Positions 2,936-31,661 of a DNA stretch of 64,000 bases are shown in pieces. The translations under genes were made by a program, and so were the position numbers. Within the stretch, counting starts at the first letter, position 1, and each line of letters starts with the position of its first letter. Source of the DNA: Chthoniobacterales bacterium (GTDB lineage Bacteria > Verrucomicrobiota > Verrucomicrobiia > Chthoniobacterales > JACTMZ01); assembly GCA_021463515.1 (NCBI GenBank), contig JAJTYZ010000112.1, positions 1 through 64,000 on the forward strand, in the 5' to 3' direction. A model generated the notes under the pieces. The model had not been told where the DNA came from, made no database searches, and was given only the letters and a program-made list of their open reading frames with translations.

Positions 2936-3895
2936 TTACCTAATCTCACCCTGCCATCCTTTTGGTTTAGCAGCGTGTCGGCCACTGATAAAAAACTTGC
3001 GAAATGTCACCCGCTTCACAGGTTGTCGTTTTTTCCAATAACTCGATGCTAATTTTAGGAAATCCCAGACACCAAACAATCCGGAGTAAAACTCCTCTCC
3101 TCCCCCTTTCCATCCCCAACACACTTGGTTAATAGCTTTCCCTGGCAAATAATATAACACCTGCGGCATGGGGACACGCAGTAATGCAAAAATCAAATCA
3201 TTCAATGTCCCGGAGCGATGCTGCTTTCCCCAATTCCGCCCACTCGTAGTTTTATCATGCCAAACATGCACTCCGGGCAAAAATCGAACAACCCATCTAT
3301 GATCCAAAAATCGCAGGCACAAATCCTTTTCTTCCGAACCATAATACCCAGGAAACTCCGCATAATTTCCCACTTCTAAAGTATAACTTCGTCTCAAAAC
3401 ATGCCCACATCCCACATAACCCAAAGCATCCTTACCCACCTCACGTGCCACCTTCTTCGGGCGATCCGGTGACAAAATATCAAATGCTACTCCCGCTACT
3501 TTGGTATCCTTCTCAAACTCACGCGCAGCCATCTCAATCTCATCTCCCCGCATAAACCAAGCATCATCGTCCAAGCTACAAAACAAATCAAACCCCTCCA
3601 TCTCCAACATCCGAGCCCGCGAATCAATCAACGACAACTCCTCTTCCGGCACAAAATGCCGAATCCCCGGAAATCGTGCGATAATCTTCCCATTCTCCCT
3701 CCGCATCTCCTCTGTCCCGGAGTTATCCCACACCATCACATCAATCAATCCATAAGACTGCTCCAAACACGATTCCAAACACTTAGGCAAATATTCCGGT
3801 CTATCCTTCGTCACAATCCCCACACGCACCCGCAACTGCCCACTAATTTCCTCTTCTTTCAGCATCTCAATCTCCCCCCCACTGACAACTGCCAA
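2936..3895 (-). CDS. Glycosyltransferase family 2
   Basis: RVGIVTKDRPEYLPKCLESCLEQ...FCSLDDDAWF; start is TTG 3895 or ATG 3865, both inside a repeat. Confidence 0.85.
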   Translation of the reverse strand: MAVVSGGEIEMLKEEEISGQLRVRVGIVTKDRPEYLPKCLESCLEQSYGLIDVMVWDNSGTEEMRRENGKIIARFPGIRHFVPEEELSLIDSRARMLEMEGFDLFCSLDDDAWFMRGDEIEMAAREFEKDTKVAGVAFDILSPDRPKKVAREVGKDALGYVGCGHVLRRSYTLEVGNYAEFPGYYGSEEKDLCLRFLDHRWVVRFLPGVHVWHDKTTSGRNWGKQHRSGTLNDLIFALLRVPMPQVLYYLPGKAINQVCWGWKGGGEEFYSGLFGVWDFLKLASSYWKKRQPVKRVTFRKFFISGRHAAKPKGWQGEIR

Positions 3896-3898
3896 CTT
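3832..3898 (-). repeat. AGTTGGC-family heptamer repeat copy (gene-less)
   Basis: Minus strand AGTTGGC AGTTGTC AGTGGGG then GAGATGCTGAAAGAAGAGG...GGGCAGTTGC. Confidence 0.8.
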
Positions 3899-4454: not shown

Positions 4455-5405
4455 TCAAAATGGCGGCAAAGACCGCCCTACCAAAATATCAAAGTATCCG
4501 AGAAGCGAACCTTTCAGAACTCGCCACTGTTTTGGATTGTGTAGGCTCCCAATCATTGTAGCGATCATTTGAAATGCGCCCCAGATCATAAGCCAAACCC
4601 AATATCTAAATCCTTGAATTCCCTGCACGCGGCGCGCCACAAAATCTCTATTAACCACGCCCATCCTCGCCACCCTTGCAAGATCAGATTTATGGCTTCC
4701 TGTTTGAGTATCATGAAAAATCCGTGCCGTTCGCGCATTGACCAATTTCCATTTTCTAGCCACCACCAATGACAAAGCCACATCTTCCATCATCGAATAT
4801 CCGGTGAACATTGGATCAAATGGAGGATCAGGCAAAGCCTCACGACGATACAGTGTAAGTCCCAAATTTAGCCACCCCACCGAAACCACGTCCGGCATTT
4901 CTTCACGATCTGCTGGAAGAAGATTCACCGCAGGCCCAAAAATCTTTCCCGCATAATCCGGTCCTAAGCCACCACCAATCAGCCGGTAAACAAGCCGCGA
5001 AACTCTGCCAGGTTCATGATATTTCTGATTCGTAATCATTGCGCTGGCACCACCGTTATCCGAAGCCAAGTGTAAAGCATTCCAAACGCGCTCCAAAGCA
5101 TGTGCCTCCAGAACAACATCATCATCCGCAAAACCAATAACATTCTCACGCACCAGACCCACTCCTTGATTTCGCTGAGCCGCAGCACCCCGCTGCTTGG
5201 CTGGAATACATAGTACCCTCGCGAACAAATCAAACCGTTCCTGCATCACACGGCATACCTCTACGGTTTGAGTGTCCGACGAAGCATCCACCACCATGAT
5301 TTCGCGTGGCCACACACCTTGAATCAATACAGATTCCAACATCTGTTGCAAAACAGCAGAACGCCCCGAAGTCGGGATCACCAGACTAAGGGGCAACACC
5401 TTCAA
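4455..5405 (-). CDS. Glycosyltransferase family 2
   Basis: SLVIPTSGRSAVLQQMLESVL...NVIGFADDDVVLE. Confidence 0.9.
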   Translation of the reverse strand: MKVLPLSLVIPTSGRSAVLQQMLESVLIQGVWPREIMVVDASSDTQTVEVCRVMQERFDLFARVLCIPAKQRGAAAQRNQGVGLVRENVIGFADDDVVLEAHALERVWNALHLASDNGGASAMITNQKYHEPGRVSRLVYRLIGGGLGPDYAGKIFGPAVNLLPADREEMPDVVSVGWLNLGLTLYRREALPDPPFDPMFTGYSMMEDVALSLVVARKWKLVNARTARIFHDTQTGSHKSDLARVARMGVVNRDFVARRVQGIQGFRYWVWLMIWGAFQMIATMIGSLHNPKQWRVLKGSLLGYFDILVGRSLPPF

Positions 5406-6139
5406 GTTGTGACCTCCCTAAGCACCCGCCAAAATCCCTCCCGAATCTTCACCGGGTCAAAATCGCGTCTCCCTGCCTCTACAGCCCGCTTCGCCAGCCC
5501 AACCCTCAACTCTCCATCTGTCTTCAATCTTTGTAAGCACGCCACCAATTCCTCACGCGTGGTGCACGAAACCACCCCATTGGGGTAAAAATTGAGAAAT
5601 TCTAAAACGCTAAAACGTTGCAATAATCCAACCCTTTCAGCATTTCCATTTTTCAGCTTTTCAGTTTCTTCACCTTTCAGCTTTCCCTCCCCTGTCAACT
5701 GCCCACTGCCAACTGCCAACTCCTCTACCCCACGCCCATATCTCACTCCGGTAGCAAACTCCGGCCCCGACACCACCACGGGCATCCCCAGTCCCAAATA
5801 CTCCGTTAACTTACTTGGAAAATGCGTACGGTAAAGCATCTCATTATCTCCAGCAGGATTTGAATAAGGTAAAATCATCACATCCGCCCGTTCCTGCATC
5901 GTGCGCCACATTTCTAGGATATTCATACGATGCGGCATCCATTCCACAACATCCGTCGCCTCCAATAATCCCTTTAACTTATACGGCGGTCGCGGTGTCG
6001 AAGTCAAAACCTTAGCATTCACCTCCCGCAACACCGGAATCAACGCCATCAACGCTTCCCCATATCCATAAGCCACCGATCCTGCATATCCCAGCGTCAA
6101 AGTCCCCACCCCATTTCCAGTATTCTCCTCTTGCTTCAT
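5402..6139 (-). CDS. Glycosyltransferase, C-terminal half of a split gene; carries an in-frame repeat-derived insert
   Basis: LTLGYAGSVAYGYGEALMAL...FPSKLTEYLGLGMPVVVSGPEF; contains AVGSGQLTGEGKLKGEETEKLKNGNAERVG; same frame as 6215-6856. Confidence 0.75.
   Translation of the reverse strand: MKQEENTGNGVGTLTLGYAGSVAYGYGEALMALIPVLREVNAKVLTSTPRPPYKLKGLLEATDVVEWMPHRMNILEMWRTMQERADVMILPYSNPAGDNEMLYRTHFPSKLTEYLGLGMPVVVSGPEFATGVRYGRGVEELAVGSGQLTGEGKLKGEETEKLKNGNAERVGLLQRFSVLEFLNFYPNGVVSCTTREELVACLQRLKTDGELRVGLAKRAVEAGRRDFDPVKIREGFWRVLREVTT
5594..5727 (-). repeat. AGTTGGC-family heptamer array plus GCTGAAA/TTTTAGC module, inside a CDS
   Basis: Minus strand AGTTGGC AGTTGGC AGTGGGC AGTTGAC AGGGGAGGGAAAGCTGAAAGGTGAAGAAACTGAAAAGCTGAAAAATGGAAATGCTGAAAGGGTTGGATTATTGCAACGTTTTAGCGTTTTAG. 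Confidence 0.85.
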
Positions 6140-6140
6140 T

Positions 6141-6224
6141 TCAAAATTTTAGTCTTTCAGCCTCTCTCTGCCAACTGACTACTGATTCCTGCCAACTCCT
6201 CTCCTTCCAGCATTTTAGCCTTTC
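6141..6224 (-). repeat. AGTTGGC-family heptamer copy splitting a glycosyltransferase
   Basis: Minus strand GGCTAAAATGCTGGAAGGAGAGG AGTTGGC AGGAATC AGTAGTC AGTTGGC AGAGAGAGGCTGAAAGACTAAAATTTTG. Confidence 0.85.
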
Positions 6225-15060: not shown

Positions 15061-15140
15061 TTTAGCTTTCTTGTCCTCTCCTGCCGACGGCCAACTACCT
15101 ACTGTCAACTTCCCTGCTCAGTTTTTCGGCCTTTTCTCCC
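15061..15140 (-). repeat. AGTTGGC-family heptamer copy at a gene junction
   Basis: Minus strand AGTTGAC AGTAGGT AGTTGGC CGTCGGC AGGAGAGGACAAGAAAGCTAAAA. Confidence 0.8.
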
Positions 15141-16153
15141 AGTGCTGCAGCATAAGCTCCTAAGTCATGCTGACCGGCTCTAATCTCCCTTACAGCTTTC
15201 CACATGCCGCGCCTTCGTGACATTGTCATCTCCCATTCCAAACGCCTCAGTCGCCCCCTTCGCATAAAGGACATAATCCAGAATCGCCAATCGTTGCGCG
15301 GATGCAAGATGCGCCCATTCTCAACAAATCCATGCAATACAGTTGAATAGGCATTGGCCTCCGCATTTTTCAGCAAATATTCATCAGAGCAACGACCCAC
15401 AGGGATCAAATGATCCATCAACAACTTCTTAAATACACCCTTTCCATACCCTGATTGACACCCCACATAAGATAAGTCGGAATCTCCTCCGAAGCCAGCA
15501 CTTTTTGGAGTCGGATCTAGCAGCCGACGCATCGGATTATCCAAAACACGTTGTCGGTAAAGTTTTAAGGTCTCCCTCCGTGCACATAGTCCTGCTCCCC
15601 ATGGGGTGGAATCATGATGCTCAATCACATTGGACCAAATATCCTGTGTTAATTCACGCGCACACAAAGCACCCCGCAGCCAGGTATCAGGTGCCTTATC
15701 CGGCTCATCAAACTTTAGTAAAATTTGCCCACCCCAAGTTCCTAGGTGAGGGAAATCCCTAGAAATTTTGACAACCTCCTCAAGATAATCCGCCCGCAAA
15801 GCATTATCCTGATCCACAAAAACAAAGACATCTCCCTTCCCCAACTCAAACCCATACAGTCTGGAACTCACCAACCCAATCCCCTCCCGCTTCCGGTCCG
15901 TCTGCACAAGCCGCGCATTGGGATGCCATCCCAAATCCACAACCACCCTCCCTTCCTCCTCCCTCACCAACTCATCCCCTGCCCACTGCCCACTGCCAAC
16001 TGTCAACTTCTTCCTCGACGCATCATCAATAACGATCAGCTCCCATTGATCCTTAGGCAGCGTCTGACTCATAAGTGCCTCCAGCACAATCCCCAAATGC
16101 CGCACTCCAGGATTGCAGCAGGGCATGATAACGGAAATGAAGTTGGCAGACAT
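15095..16153 (-). CDS. Glycosyltransferase family 2 with in-frame repeat-derived insert
   Basis: ISVIMPCCNPGVRHLGIVLEALMSQTLPKDQWELIVIDDAS; insert KLTVGSGQWAGDELVREEEGRVVV precedes DLGWHPNARLV. Confidence 0.85.
   Translation of the reverse strand: MSANFISVIMPCCNPGVRHLGIVLEALMSQTLPKDQWELIVIDDASRKKLTVGSGQWAGDELVREEEGRVVVDLGWHPNARLVQTDRKREGIGLVSSRLYGFELGKGDVFVFVDQDNALRADYLEEVVKISRDFPHLGTWGGQILLKFDEPDKAPDTWLRGALCARELTQDIWSNVIEHHDSTPWGAGLCARRETLKLYRQRVLDNPMRRLLDPTPKSAGFGGDSDLSYVGCQSGYGKGVFKKLLMDHLIPVGRCSDEYLLKNAEANAYSTVLHGFVENGRILHPRNDWRFWIMSFMRRGRLRRLEWEMTMSRRRGMWKAVREIRAGQHDLGAYAAALGEKAEKLSREVDSR
15945..16010 (-). repeat. AGTTGGC-family heptamer copy inside a GT2 CDS
   Basis: Minus strand AGTTGAC AGTTGGC AGTGGGC AGTGGGC AGGGGATGAG. 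Confidence 0.8.
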
Positions 16154-16570
16154 CAGTAGTCAGTTGGCAGTTATTGCTTCAGTGAGCGTATCAAACCTTG
16201 GATCATGGCCGAAAGCTCACGACTATCGCTGATCCAGCGATCAGCAATAGAGTTTTCTAGCAAACCGGCTTTTACACCCACAGTTGCTTGTGTCCGAAAT
16301 TCCCCACATGAACCTCGAGCGTAATCAAGAAACTTCAAGCGATCGGGCAGCGATCTCCGCTCCATACCTTCAGCAATATTCGAGGGAATAGAAAGTGCCG
16401 AACGTGTTATCTGATCACGAAACCCGAAATCTACACACTTCGCAAGCTTTCTGTAAACGTTAGCACTCAGCTCTACGGAACGCTTCCAATCCTCCAAATC
16501 TTCAAAACCCGCCATATACAAATTTCCCCTAGTGACTGTCTGCTGCCCGCTGATTACTGCCTACTGCCCA
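16141..16570. mobile_element. Candidate element: four-helix-bundle gene between inverted AGTTGGC-family arrays
   Basis: Left arm (+) AGTTGGC AGACATC AGTAGTC AGTTGGC AGTTATT; right arm (reverse complement) AGTAGGC AGTAATC AGCGGGC AGCAGAC AGTCACT; gene 16171-16515 between. Confidence 0.7.
16171..16515 (-). CDS. Four-helix bundle protein (23S rRNA intervening-sequence protein family), intact
   Basis: FEDLEDWKRSVELSANVYRKL...FGFRDQITRSALSIPSNIAEGMER...FLDYARGSCGEFRTQ; ATG at 16515 (ORF extends to TTG 16521). Confidence 0.92.
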   Translation of the reverse strand: MAGFEDLEDWKRSVELSANVYRKLAKCVDFGFRDQITRSALSIPSNIAEGMERRSLPDRLKFLDYARGSCGEFRTQATVGVKAGLLENSIADRWISDSRELSAMIQGLIRSLKQ

Positions 16571-17471
16571 AAATTTCCCTGAAATTTTGGGCATATTCCG
16601 CAAGACACACCTTCCAATCCCGCATATAATTAATCCCTCTCCACTCCAACTTCATATTAACCAGCTTCTCAGAATACGGACGCGGCGCAAAGTACTCCTC
16701 CTTCCAATAATCGGAACCCACTTCCGTCACTTTCACATCATCCTCCAGCCCTAGAAGTCTCACAAATTCCTTGGCAACATCTAAGCGGCTACAGCTTCCT
16801 CCACACACCTGATTATAGAGTCCGTAATGCCCCGTTTCCAAAACTCTAAACATCCCATTGGCAAAGTCTTTGGTATAAGTCGGCGTCCCCAACTTATCCG
16901 CCACCACAAAAAGTTCCTTCGCTCCTCCCTGAATTTGCTTAAAAATTTTATTAACAAACTTCTTGTCCTTTTTCGGGCCGCCCCCCATCATCCATCCCGC
17001 ACGAAAAATAAAATACTTGCTCATTTTCCGTTCTACAAAGCACTCTCCATAATATTTCGACTTGGCATAATGACTCGTTGGCAGAGGCATATCGAAATCT
17101 GCATAGAACTCCTGCTCGCCGCCAAAAATTCCGGCGGTACTCACATAAACCATGGTTATCCCGCGAGATTCCGCCAGCAATGCTGTATTCTCCGGCCCCA
17201 GCGCATTCGTCGCCCACGAATCCTCCGGATTTTGCTCGCAATATTCCAAATCCGTCAAAGCCCCCAAATGAAAAACTACCGTGGGCGCAAACTCATCAAA
17301 CAGCTTCTTCAACGAGAATAAATCTCGAAAGTCCTGATAAACCAACCAAGGTTCATTCACATCAATATCCGTCGCCAATACATGTTCATATCTTTGCGTT
17401 GCCACCTCAAAAACAGCGGCCCCCAACATCCCCCCAGCCCCCAACAACAATACTTTATCCTGTGTATTCAT
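16554..17471 (-). CDS. NAD-dependent SDR, dTDP-4-dehydrorhamnose reductase-like
   Basis: KVLLLGAGGMLGAAVFEVA; VFHLGALTDLEYCEQNPEDSWATNALGPENTA; YVSTAGIFGG; YAKSKYYGE. Confidence 0.85.
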   Translation of the reverse strand: MNTQDKVLLLGAGGMLGAAVFEVATQRYEHVLATDIDVNEPWLVYQDFRDLFSLKKLFDEFAPTVVFHLGALTDLEYCEQNPEDSWATNALGPENTALLAESRGITMVYVSTAGIFGGEQEFYADFDMPLPTSHYAKSKYYGECFVERKMSKYFIFRAGWMMGGGPKKDKKFVNKIFKQIQGGAKELFVVADKLGTPTYTKDFANGMFRVLETGHYGLYNQVCGGSCSRLDVAKEFVRLLGLEDDVKVTEVGSDYWKEEYFAPRPYSEKLVNMKLEWRGINYMRDWKVCLAEYAQNFREILGSRQ

Positions 17472-28604: not shown

Positions 28605-30203
28605 TTAGCTCACCCGGGAATTGTCCGTGAGCGTTTTCCAAATTGCCACAAGCAATCCGAGAATGCCTGCCAGCAGCATTCCCCATGCGGCCAACGCGAC
28701 AGCTCCTGCACGGACGCCAAATTGCGAGTAAACATGGAATGGCATGAAATTCACGCGCAGCAATCTCTCGGAAATCTCCGGCACCATGAGACGGCGTTCA
28801 CAAAATTCACCTCCCAGCATCGTGGCAAAATTCAGCCATCTCTGGCCCACAAGAAAGTATTCACGGCCCCATGCCGCCCATTGCACCTGCTCCAGGTTGC
28901 TCCAAAACAGGAGCGAGCCAATTTGGGCCGCAAGCGCATAGGCGGTCAAAATTCCACATGCGATTTTTGCCGTTTTTCCCATCCGGGGCCAAAGGTGCGC
29001 CATCAGGCCGAAGCCAAGCAGACCCAGCATGATGGCCGGCGTGGTTGTATAACGGCTGCCCCATCCTGACGCGCCGCCCGGCCACGGGTAGGGCGCGTAA
29101 AATGCAATCAATGTCAGCAATAATGCGAACAGGCAAAATCCAAGCGTTTTGATGTCCCTGGAGACGCGCCAAAAATAAAAAATCAACAACAGCGCAAAAA
29201 GCAAAATCCCCGGATCCATCCACAGGGCGGAGTCATAACCGGAAAACAGCAGCGTCCATACGCCCCGCCACCAATCGCCGCCAACGTAAAAATCCGGATT
29301 TTGCAACTGATGCGCCCCGATATAGGTGTTTGTGAACGACCCGAATCTCACCCACTGATATAAACGCTCTGCAACGACAAACAGCCCGAACACCGCGCCA
29401 AAAATTCCTGCGGCCTGAAGCCAGTTGCCGCGGCCCTTTGCCTTTCCATGCGCGTCACGGAATGCAAAAAGCAAAACCGCCATAAAAAGTCCCGCGAAGG
29501 CCGTTTCAAAGATGGTTGGGAGGCGAACCAGAAGCGCGAATCCCGCCGCTGCTCCCGCTCCGATCATATTGCCTAGGTGCCCGGTCAAGAACCATCGCAG
29601 ACAAAAAAGGAGGAGAGCCAAGAAACATAGGAGCGTAAGATTATTTTCCTGATTCACCTGCGTCCATTGCAGCAGTGTCGTTCCAAAAAGCATCCCAATC
29701 GTTCCCGTCGCCGCAGCCGTGGGTTGAAAATTCAACAACAGCAGTAAATGAAACCCAAACACCACGCACGCTGCGGTAATGAGTGGGAAAGTCGCATACA
29801 CAATGAACGCGTGTTTGATCCTACCTTTCACACTGGCCGGATCAGGCATTGTTTCTCCAAGAAGCAGCGAGCTGACCATATCCGCCGGGAACATCACCAG
29901 ACTCTGTCCTATTCCATACCACGCATGAATCACTCCATTGCGCCCGACAACGCCAAACTCAGGATAATCCCCGTCCCGAACCGGAGGCTCATCCGTCCAC
30001 AACGCGTGGGTGACCTGCAAGCGGCGCGAAGCATCTATCGAGCTGATATCTCCGTCCTCCACCGCAAACCCCGTCAGCAGAGCCATAAAAAATAATAAGA
30101 TCGTCAATCTCCTTTGAAGTCCTTTTATTTGTCCCCCTGTTCCAAACTCTGTTGGACATTGGGACAGTGATGCCATTAAACCCATGCCTGCTTTCCGCCT
30201 CAA
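28605..30203 (-). CDS. Polytopic membrane protein
   Basis: Multiple TM stretches; overlaps the upstream kinase gene by a few bp. Confidence 0.7.
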   Translation of the reverse strand: MRRKAGMGLMASLSQCPTEFGTGGQIKGLQRRLTILLFFMALLTGFAVEDGDISSIDASRRLQVTHALWTDEPPVRDGDYPEFGVVGRNGVIHAWYGIGQSLVMFPADMVSSLLLGETMPDPASVKGRIKHAFIVYATFPLITAACVVFGFHLLLLLNFQPTAAATGTIGMLFGTTLLQWTQVNQENNLTLLCFLALLLFCLRWFLTGHLGNMIGAGAAAGFALLVRLPTIFETAFAGLFMAVLLFAFRDAHGKAKGRGNWLQAAGIFGAVFGLFVVAERLYQWVRFGSFTNTYIGAHQLQNPDFYVGGDWWRGVWTLLFSGYDSALWMDPGILLFALLLIFYFWRVSRDIKTLGFCLFALLLTLIAFYAPYPWPGGASGWGSRYTTTPAIMLGLLGFGLMAHLWPRMGKTAKIACGILTAYALAAQIGSLLFWSNLEQVQWAAWGREYFLVGQRWLNFATMLGGEFCERRLMVPEISERLLRVNFMPFHVYSQFGVRAGAVALAAWGMLLAGILGLLVAIWKTLTDNSRVS

Positions 30204-31180
30204 TGCACAAAAATGATCCGACTCCCTTGCGGCGCAAAACGGAAAGGTGTTTCCTGTAAATTTCGGAGGGCTTGACGGACGGCAGATTGTTTATTTTGTG
30301 GGACAAGAAAAAGGAAAAAGCCACCACCACCTGCGCCCAGAATTTTTCCCCCAAGTGCTCCCGCAACACGTGCGGCATGGTAAGTGGCATTGATCGTCGG
30401 ATTTGAAATTCCCGCCGCCAAACTCTTTTTGAGGTGCCAACTTTCATCCATGGCCTCACCAAGCGTGTCCAAACGATTTGATTGTAAATCCTGTAACACA
30501 GCTTCGGCGCAAGCAACCATACGATCCATGGCCTTTATTTTGTCGCTCTCCTTAGTTAAAGTTTGCGATTGCTCTTTTAGAAGAGCCGATGCACTTCGTG
30601 TTACGCCTGTATAAAACAAGAGAAGCATAGATTGAAGCTCTTCCAATGTCTCTCGCTGACACAAAAGCTTCTGCACTTCCACCGTTTCATCAGCGTGAAA
30701 ACGGATAAAATTACTCCCCCCAAATGCTGCTGCATATTGGTCTTGCTTTCCGATAGGCTCACAACACCGTTCTATCTCTATCGCACAGGCTTCGGCTGCA
30801 AGACGTTCCGCAGAGGTATGGCGACCTTCATAAGCATGCAAGGCATTAAGCAACCCGACCGTGAATGCACTAGAACTTCCTAATCCGGTCCCTTGGGCCG
30901 GTATATCGGCCACCGAAGTGATTTCGATGCCCCCTCGAATTCCAAGCATATCTAATGCTTCGCGGACAATTGGATGTTGAACCTGTGATGCCTCACCCAC
31001 TTCCTCCATGCGAGAATAACTTACCCGCACCGCATCATCAAACTTCCGGCTCACTGTCACATAAACACATTTGTCAATAGTCGTTGAAAGAACCGCTCCG
31101 CCATTGCGCCGATAATAAGACGGCAAATCTGATCCTCCTCCCAGAAAACTAATGCGTAAAGGTGTTTGAGAAATGATCAT
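30200..31180 (-). CDS. hddA: GHMP kinase, D-glycero-D-manno-heptose 7-phosphate kinase-like
   Basis: MIISQTPLRISFLGGGSDLPSYYRRNGGAVLSTTIDKCVYV; PAQGTGLGSSSAFTVGLLNAL; GGKILGAGGGGFFLFL. Confidence 0.9.
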   Translation of the reverse strand: MIISQTPLRISFLGGGSDLPSYYRRNGGAVLSTTIDKCVYVTVSRKFDDAVRVSYSRMEEVGEASQVQHPIVREALDMLGIRGGIEITSVADIPAQGTGLGSSSAFTVGLLNALHAYEGRHTSAERLAAEACAIEIERCCEPIGKQDQYAAAFGGSNFIRFHADETVEVQKLLCQRETLEELQSMLLLFYTGVTRSASALLKEQSQTLTKESDKIKAMDRMVACAEAVLQDLQSNRLDTLGEAMDESWHLKKSLAAGISNPTINATYHAARVAGALGGKILGAGGGGFFLFLVPQNKQSAVRQALRNLQETPFRFAPQGSRIIFVH

Positions 31181-31182
31181 GG

Positions 31183-31661
31183 GGTTCTTGGTTCTTGGTT
31201 CTTGGTGCTTGGTGCTTGGTTTTTGAAAATTAATCGGCGTTGAGGAGGTATTTGATAAATCCTCCGATTTTTGCGTAAGTCAACCGGGCAAGCTCGTAGA
31301 GTTCTTCAAATTTGGATGGCGAGATATATTCCTGATCCAATGCGACATAAAGCTGACTCTGTACTTCGCTGCAGGAACGCTGGGCATAGCGGAGGAACTT
31401 GATAAACTCCGCCCTACTGCCACTATCAAACCCTTCGGCAATATTGTGCATAATGGAGCCGGCCGCCCTCGTGATCTAATCCCGCAAACCAAAGTCACGA
31501 CTAAATTTCTCCGAGGCAACAGCCGCATAAATTGAGCGCGTCAAGTTCCCTCGCCAATTTCCAAGCCTCAATCTCCTCGAACCGCGTAATTTTCATACCC
31601 ACCAAAAACCAAAAACCAAGAACCAGGAACCAAGCACTAAGAACCAGAACCAAGAACCAAA
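31183..31661. mobile_element. Candidate element: four-helix-bundle pseudogene between inverted GTTCTTG arrays
   Basis: Left arm (+) GTTCTTG GTTCTTG GTTCTTG GTGCTTG GTGCTTG GTTTTTG; right arm (reverse complement) GTTCTTG GTTCTG GTTCTTA GTGCTTG GTTCCTG GTTCTTG GTTTTTG GTTTTTG. Confidence 0.75.
31230..31596 (-). pseudogene. Four-helix bundle protein (23S rRNA IVS family), degraded: one frameshift and one in-frame TAG
   Basis: MKITRFEEIEAWKLAREL, then an apparent extra G, then TRSIYAAVASEKFSRDFGLRD(TAG)ITRAAGSIMHNIAEGFDSGSRAEFIKFLRYAQRSCSEVQSQLYVALDQEYIS; covers ORF fragments 31501-32091 (tail) and 31230-31451. Confidence 0.9.

Follow-up and report, generated by a model that had tools for sequence, protein, structure and literature searches.

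The window, that is, the whole 64-kb stretch of DNA that was analysed, contains an intact gene of the S23/IVP family between two inverted arrays of a degenerate 7-nt word. The S23 gene lies on the same strand as its two neighbours, rmlD and a glycosyltransferase gene. The features of this element, of the solo arrays of the window and of a second copy of the family are as follows:

16554..17471, minus strand: rmlD, dTDP-4-dehydrorhamnose reductase-like, host gene upstream of the element (PF04321, E 5e-51)
16565..16593, minus strand: perfect 13-bp hairpin with a 3-nt loop, made of rmlD-end sequence and adjoining the outer edge of the upstream arm
16537..16568, minus strand: upstream arm in coding orientation, GGGC AGTAGGC AGTAATC AGCGGGC AGCAGAC, read from the sequence as a run of four AGNNNNC words
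16171..16515, minus strand: intact S23/IVP-type four-helix-bundle gene (PF05635, E 2e-27; TIGR02436; NF008912)
16141..16171, plus strand: downstream arm, AGTTGGC AGACATC AGTAGTC AGTTGGC AGT, likewise read as a four-word AGNNNNC run
15095..16153, minus strand: family 2 glycosyltransferase, host gene downstream of the element (PF00535, E 2e-11)
15981..16008, minus strand: solo array of the window element's word, inside the glycosyltransferase frame
6170..6197, minus strand: solo run of four AGNNNNC words
5694..5721, minus strand: solo array of the window element's word, inside the reading frame 5402-6139
3881..3897, minus strand: short solo match to the window element's word, AGTTGGCAGTTGTCAGT
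31601..31660, minus strand: upstream arm of the second element, word GGTTCTT (ACCAAGA on the plus strand; TRF score 78)
31284..31547, minus strand: second S23-family gene, with one in-frame TAG (PF05635, 89 bits)
31183..31225, plus strand: downstream arm of the second element, word GGTTCTT (TRF score 65)

The gene of the window element runs on the minus strand from an ATG ending at 16515 to a stop codon at 16171-16173, and encodes about 115 aa (114 from the ATG). The original prediction had placed it in the S23/four-helix-bundle family, and it belongs there: the protein passes the curated cut-off of PF05635/TIGR02436 (98 bits for TIGR02436, against a cut-off of 24), also exceeds that of NF008912, and is modelled as a four-helix bundle. 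The downstream arm is inverted relative to the upstream arm. Its words occupy 16141-16168 on the plus strand and those of the upstream arm run on the minus strand from 16564 to 16537, exactly as first read; the initial delimitation was thus right about the words but omitted the same-word solo arrays within 13 kb and the hairpin at 16565-16593. The rmlD stop codon falls inside the upstream arm, and the earliest codon at which the glycosyltransferase could start falls inside the downstream arm.

Runs of at least four consecutive AGNNNNC words occur exactly five times on the two strands of the window, starting at 5694(-), 6170(-), 15981(-), 16141(+) and 16538(-), and not once in 60 dinucleotide-preserving shuffles of it. 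Because the arms of the window element are degenerate, they align with each other at a modest score (13, where swapped arms have a median of 10), and the case at this locus rests on word phase and on comparative evidence. At 5602-5680, an 8-nt periodic stretch (CTAAAACG, then TTTCAGC) adjoins the AGTTGGC solo array in the same frame.

In the second element, GGTTCTT is repeated 6 times on one side and ACCAAGA, its reverse complement in rotated form, 8.7 times on the other, and the next gene (30200-31180) has its start codon 2 nt away from the downstream arm. A third copy of the family, on another contig of the same genome, lies between inverted GTTGAGA arrays. This genome therefore holds three copies with inverted heptamer ends and three different words.

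Inverted word arrays at homologous genes

Among relatives, 45 of 57 have genes of the S23/IVP family, as do 141 of 195 genomes in the same phylum and 61 of 80 in another. A first sample of 137 non-identical PF05635 loci was drawn from relatives, from the phylum of the window genome and from other phyla, and the upstream arm of each element was locally aligned with the reverse complement of the downstream arm of the same element. The median score was 20, against 10 for each of three controls (downstream arms of other elements, the direct orientation and distal flanks), for loci picked by match score and flanks cut to a fixed length; about one third of these loci did not rise above the 95% point of swapped pairs. 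Two held-out samples behaved similarly, with 17 against 10 for swapped arms and 9 for control flanks (28 loci from the phylum of a Chlorobiaceae genome) and 20 against 10 and 11.5 (25 loci from a search of 369 gammaproteobacteria). Lag scores were 13 and 13 where control flanks gave 6; strong arrays had a lag of 7 nt in 42/48 and 48/52 cases, with 8 and 6 nt as minor forms. The check set by the original prediction, that homologous genes should carry inverted arrays above background, thus came out positive in three samples, and inverted word arms are general across many bacterial phyla.

The arms differ in size and quality. Array length varies widely between elements, and some arms, such as those of L034 and L041, comprise dozens of units. 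In L164 (G055:C48), the two arms are almost identical over about 45 nt, irregular units included, as if one were a fresh copy of the other. In cyanobacterial plasmids, the inverted arrays that enclose genes of the family have the word GGGAGTA or GGGAACA; the plasmid search gave mainly cyanobacterial matches, and was informative on words and not on empty sites. On two cyanobacterial plasmids (L393 and L394), S23 genes are found between cas6 and cas4 of CRISPR loci, and the long heptamer arrays on both sides of the gene in L393 match in direct, not inverted, orientation. One locus (L006; G000:C37, 1360-2110) was set aside from the class: it encodes a longer protein with a weak S23-like match, and has direct repeats of about 80 bp (GTCGAGTCTGTCGAGTAAGTCCTGT) in place of word arrays. 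It is possibly a sister element with different ends.

AGTTGGC is the word of the window element and not a general word of such arrays. Judging from the loci compared, the word is a property of each element or its lineage. AGTTGGC-type words accompany proteins closely related to that of the window in Planctomycetes (61-70% identity), in Roseibacillus (77%) and in a congener (81%), which suggests that protein and word passed together between phyla. Across all non-syntenic pairs, protein and word similarity are weakly correlated (rho 0.15, a value reached in 0 of 300 permutations). Among protein pairs that are 60-86% identical, 23.5% share a word, against a background of about 2%, so that most have different words, and unrelated operons within one genome hold copies with different words. 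The weak correlation and the mostly different words speak against a protein that strictly recognises its word. The word drifts fast and both arms nevertheless stay alike, which means that the arms change in concert. The strand polarity of words held in 83% of held-out words. A universal unit motif, ARKNKKC, was rejected: it reached 4.43 bits against 3.2-3.4 in training, but did not outperform composition in held-out words (p 0.19).

Operon junctions with and without the element

Elements sit in sense inside operons, at stop/start junctions. At loci with a neighbour on each side within 400 bp, as called by an ORF heuristic, both neighbours lay on the strand of the S23 gene in 81 of 111 cases and both on the opposite strand in 12 of 111. 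The median distance from the upstream stop codon to the start of the array is 3 nt, and the spacer deduced for the empty site is 3.5 nt.

This position within transcribed operons also suits an account in which the arms act in RNA, forming a long stem, closed by the gene as its loop, which RNase III would cleave in the manner of the intervening sequences (IVSs) of 23S rRNA; selection would keep the stem, thanks to which the element would do no harm in operons. RNase III does release the rRNA IVSs that contain an S23 ORF by cutting at a terminal stem (PMC4990558), and the window element folds better than its shuffles (z -2.9), as any inverted repeat would. Mismatches between arms, however, lean toward A-C and not G-U (G-U 194 vs A-C 258, p 0.003); an excess of G-U wobble pairs, considered as evidence for an RNA stem, was rejected as the opposite sign was found. 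We regard this account as unlikely.

Three junctions were found both empty and filled, in comparisons made between species and not between strains, and the empty orthologous sites called for by the original prediction therefore exist. Between metK and ahcY, three congeners have an empty spacer of 50-60 nt, the genome of the window is also empty, and six congeners carry an element of 0.44-0.49 kb with one of two words; in addition, one congener retains an arm remnant, and in a less closely related genome the junction holds an inverted array without the gene. The cysD–cysN spacer measures a few to 15 nt in the majority of 100 Pseudomonas species and 439-499 nt in others, while decayed copies of 115-351 nt in five species keep arm sequence. 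The sdhA–sdhB spacer is 2-7 nt long in four congeners and 439-472 nt long in three genomes of the genus. The empty sites examined at metK–ahcY, cysD–cysN and sdhA–sdhB contain no array, and no target duplication is visible at these three junctions when flanks are compared across different species. The E. coli strains that were examined for strain-level empty sites gave no match.

Most filled cysD–cysN alleles lack the 9-nt empty spacer and have AGT or AGC, not TCG, as the second codon of cysN; given these differences, allele replacement by recombination is possible. The protein tree requires the cysD–cysN copies to have changed site five times or more across well-supported branches, which we read as at least five separate arrivals, on a tree where gains and losses look alike. 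At the same junction in Pseudomonas mandelii (L132 and L268), an S23 gene whose arms have been replaced lies between duplicated sequence of about 90 bp from the end of cysD and the start of cysN, an arrangement that may hint at insertion or excision. At sdhA–sdhB in two genomes (L331 in G005, L343 in G007), a palindromic repeat, TGTAGCGGCGGTC...GACCGCCGCTACA, stands beside an S23 arm remnant and is a putative second repeat family using this junction.

An alternative is that nothing moves, and that the S23 gene is a host operon gene whose product binds the arrays as operators, inherited vertically and lost in some lineages. Constant placement in operons and a conserved reading frame would fit such a regulator, and the 7-nt repeats found just upstream of start codons in Beggiatoaceae have been proposed to be regulatory (PMC4679880). 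This account appears improbable against the five or more origins at cysD–cysN, the differently worded copies in unrelated operons of one genome, the remnants and pseudogenes, and the occurrence of the same word in different phyla.

Perfect hairpins with stems of 8 bp or more adjoin the outer edge of the upstream array in 12 of 161 elements, compared with 1 of 322 control windows (p 1.3e-5); at the outer edge of the downstream array, hairpins in the 161 elements were not significant relative to controls. At several cysD copies, the stems include and follow the host stop codon, as in the pairs CTAA/TTAG (L084), CTGA/TCAG (L127) and CTTCTAG/CTAGAAG (L134). Since the stems follow the host stop codon, the inner half of the hairpin looks copied from host sequence. 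This half would derive from foldback synthesis at insertion or from later template switching, a process that homogenises inverted repeats (PMC8604942, PMC8794818).

The S23 protein and solo arrays

The AlphaFold model of the window protein consists of four helices (mean pLDDT 97.6). Foldseek matched it to Xcc0516 (2gsc, TM 0.90) and to BT_0352 (2rld, 0.82), and on fold alone to Avd (4dwl, TM 0.79, E 0.36). Both solved S23 homologues have five chains per entry, and PMC10053308 cites the 2gsc paper under a title that refers to a quaternary structure of five four-helix bundles. The best match to xcc0516 in the sample is only 55% identical. The window protein, a four-helix bundle that matches PF05635 only, shows no catalytic domain.

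The likeness to Avd, an accessory protein of diversity-generating retroelements, raises the option that the element spreads as RNA, with a reverse transcriptase acting in trans and the Avd-like protein as its accessory factor. PF00078 was found in 17 of 45 genomes with the gene and in 1 of 12 without it (p 0.08). Twelve relatives with at least four copies nevertheless have no match to PF00078, a 98% complete genome with 18 copies among them. Dependence on a resident PF00078 reverse transcriptase was therefore not supported, many copies being kept without PF00078, and we find this route very doubtful.

Heptamer arrays also exist without the gene. The window genome, of which about 344 kb was covered as stretches, has such solo arrays, and the AGTTGGC arrays detected in it all lie on the contig of the window, within 13 kb of the element. 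Similarly, in a 9.5-Mb Planctomycete genome, nearly all AGTTGGC arrays fall within a 30-kb stretch around an element with the same word. In long stretches with 40 elements, 12-mers of the same word lay outside the elements at 5.7 times the density seen in other genomes; same-word solo arrays thus concentrate around the cognate gene. Gene-less inverted pairs of one word occur as well (L181; G252 region), and a 310-bp AGTTGGC-type array of about 44 units has no gene (L371; G252:C1:1929853-1930162). That the arrays are independent repeats into which S23 genes merely insert is hardly credible, even with solo arrays in the window genome and published gene-less heptamer families in Xanthomonas, Nostoc and Beggiatoaceae (PMC4692102, PMC4679880), as insertion into a tandem array predicts arms of the same direction, whereas the arms are inverted and the empty sites examined are without an array.

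Known systems and a possible mode of spread

One close known parallel is the IVS of 23S rRNA, which shares the protein family, complementary ends and heptamers upstream of the ORF (PMC4990558). In Coxiella burnetii, an IVS of about 430 nt has three GACAGAT repeats upstream of the S23 ORF and a 28-bp terminal stem, and the heptamer copy number differs among strains (PMC4990558). However, IVSs lie in 23S rRNA helices and are cut by RNase III, whereas the window element lies between protein genes and, unlike the Coxiella IVS, has a repeated word common to both ends. In RAYT/REPIN systems, too, inverted repeats of one class enclose a small gene and also occur elsewhere as inverted pairs without it, but RAYTs are HuH/Y1 transposases acting on a short palindrome and REPINs are scattered genome-wide (PMC3116915, PMC6006769); the window gene has no HuH domain, its words are 7-nt tandem units and its solo arrays are near the gene.

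The Avd protein of diversity-generating retroelements has the same fold as the window protein (4dwl, TM 0.79; PMC10053308). The locus has no reverse transcriptase, the three PF00078 matches of the genome lying on contigs C51 and C110 and not on C16, and it is not in 23S rRNA, with rmlD and a glycosyltransferase as neighbours; the original prediction had likewise seen neither rRNA nor reverse transcriptase here. No template or variable repeat was recognised at the locus, a point that comes from inspection and not from a systematic search. The window element also differs from DDE insertion sequences and MITEs in having no transposase. Orphan heptamers, namely GGGAATC in Xanthomonas, GGGGA(C/T)T in Nostoc (PMC4692102) and TAACTGA in Beggiatoaceae (PMC4679880), resemble the arms in being degenerate 7-nt arrays that are mostly intergenic and partly in inverted pairs, but were published as gene-less repeats (PMC4692102, PMC4679880); a link between them and S23 elements is suggested.

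As it fails a defining feature of the IVS, diversity-generating retroelement, RAYT/REPIN and DDE systems, the window element was filed under none of them. Relative to the open-access literature searched, what is new is the element with word-array ends and not the protein family. The element class itself is well supported: the loci compared show its anatomy, a locus-specific word common to both ends, sense insertion at stop/start junctions of operons, presence/absence alleles, remnants and same-word solo arrays near the cognate gene. The idea of an insertion-type element with periodic word-array ends is thereby upheld by the inverted arrays at homologues and by the empty orthologous sites. Calling it autonomous was not borne out, as the window element includes no recombinase or transposase, its one gene matching PF05635 only, and carries no known recombinase or reverse transcriptase.

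Our preferred reading, to which we give a rough probability of 0.55, is that the window holds one copy of a widespread class of promoterless mobile elements of about 0.4-0.5 kb, which would be held as a hairpin by their protein and copied by the host. Each element comprises a single gene of the S23/IVP type, enclosed by inverted arrays whose 7-nt word is degenerate. Its protein, pentameric in the solved homologues, would bind the repeated units at both ends and keep the element folded as a hairpin, probably where replication or transcription exposes single-stranded DNA. Through template switching or foldback synthesis, host replication or repair would then copy the element into a site or out of one, in a process that would resemble that of REPINs without the Y1 transposase. 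The sense position inside an operon would supply transcription of the gene. Host template switching is preferred on account of the lack of a recombinase, the lack of visible target duplication, the concerted inverted ends and the host-copied edge; it would account for both the concerted change of the arms and the host sequence copied back as an outer hairpin. A five-subunit ring and arms of about 3-5 units would allow one unit per subunit, which we offer as an idea only.

The rRNA intervening sequences with an S23 gene would, on the preferred reading, be copies that landed in an rRNA operon; rRNA IVSs may be a special case of the element class, which the heptamers and terminal stem of the Coxiella IVS fit. 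In its fullest form, the proposal is tentative: a class free of recombinase, transposase and polymerase, in which a pentamer would read 7-nt words, the host would move the element by foldback template switching, the word would be lineage-specific and rewritten at both ends together, and both rRNA IVSs and the orphan heptamers of cyanobacteria and xanthomonads would be its products.

The S23/IVP family is abundant in several phyla and has so far been unexplained there. A word-ended mobile element offers one testable origin for rRNA IVSs, for orphan heptamers and for the ancestry of Avd. If the element moves without a recombinase of its own, it would represent a new way for DNA to spread.
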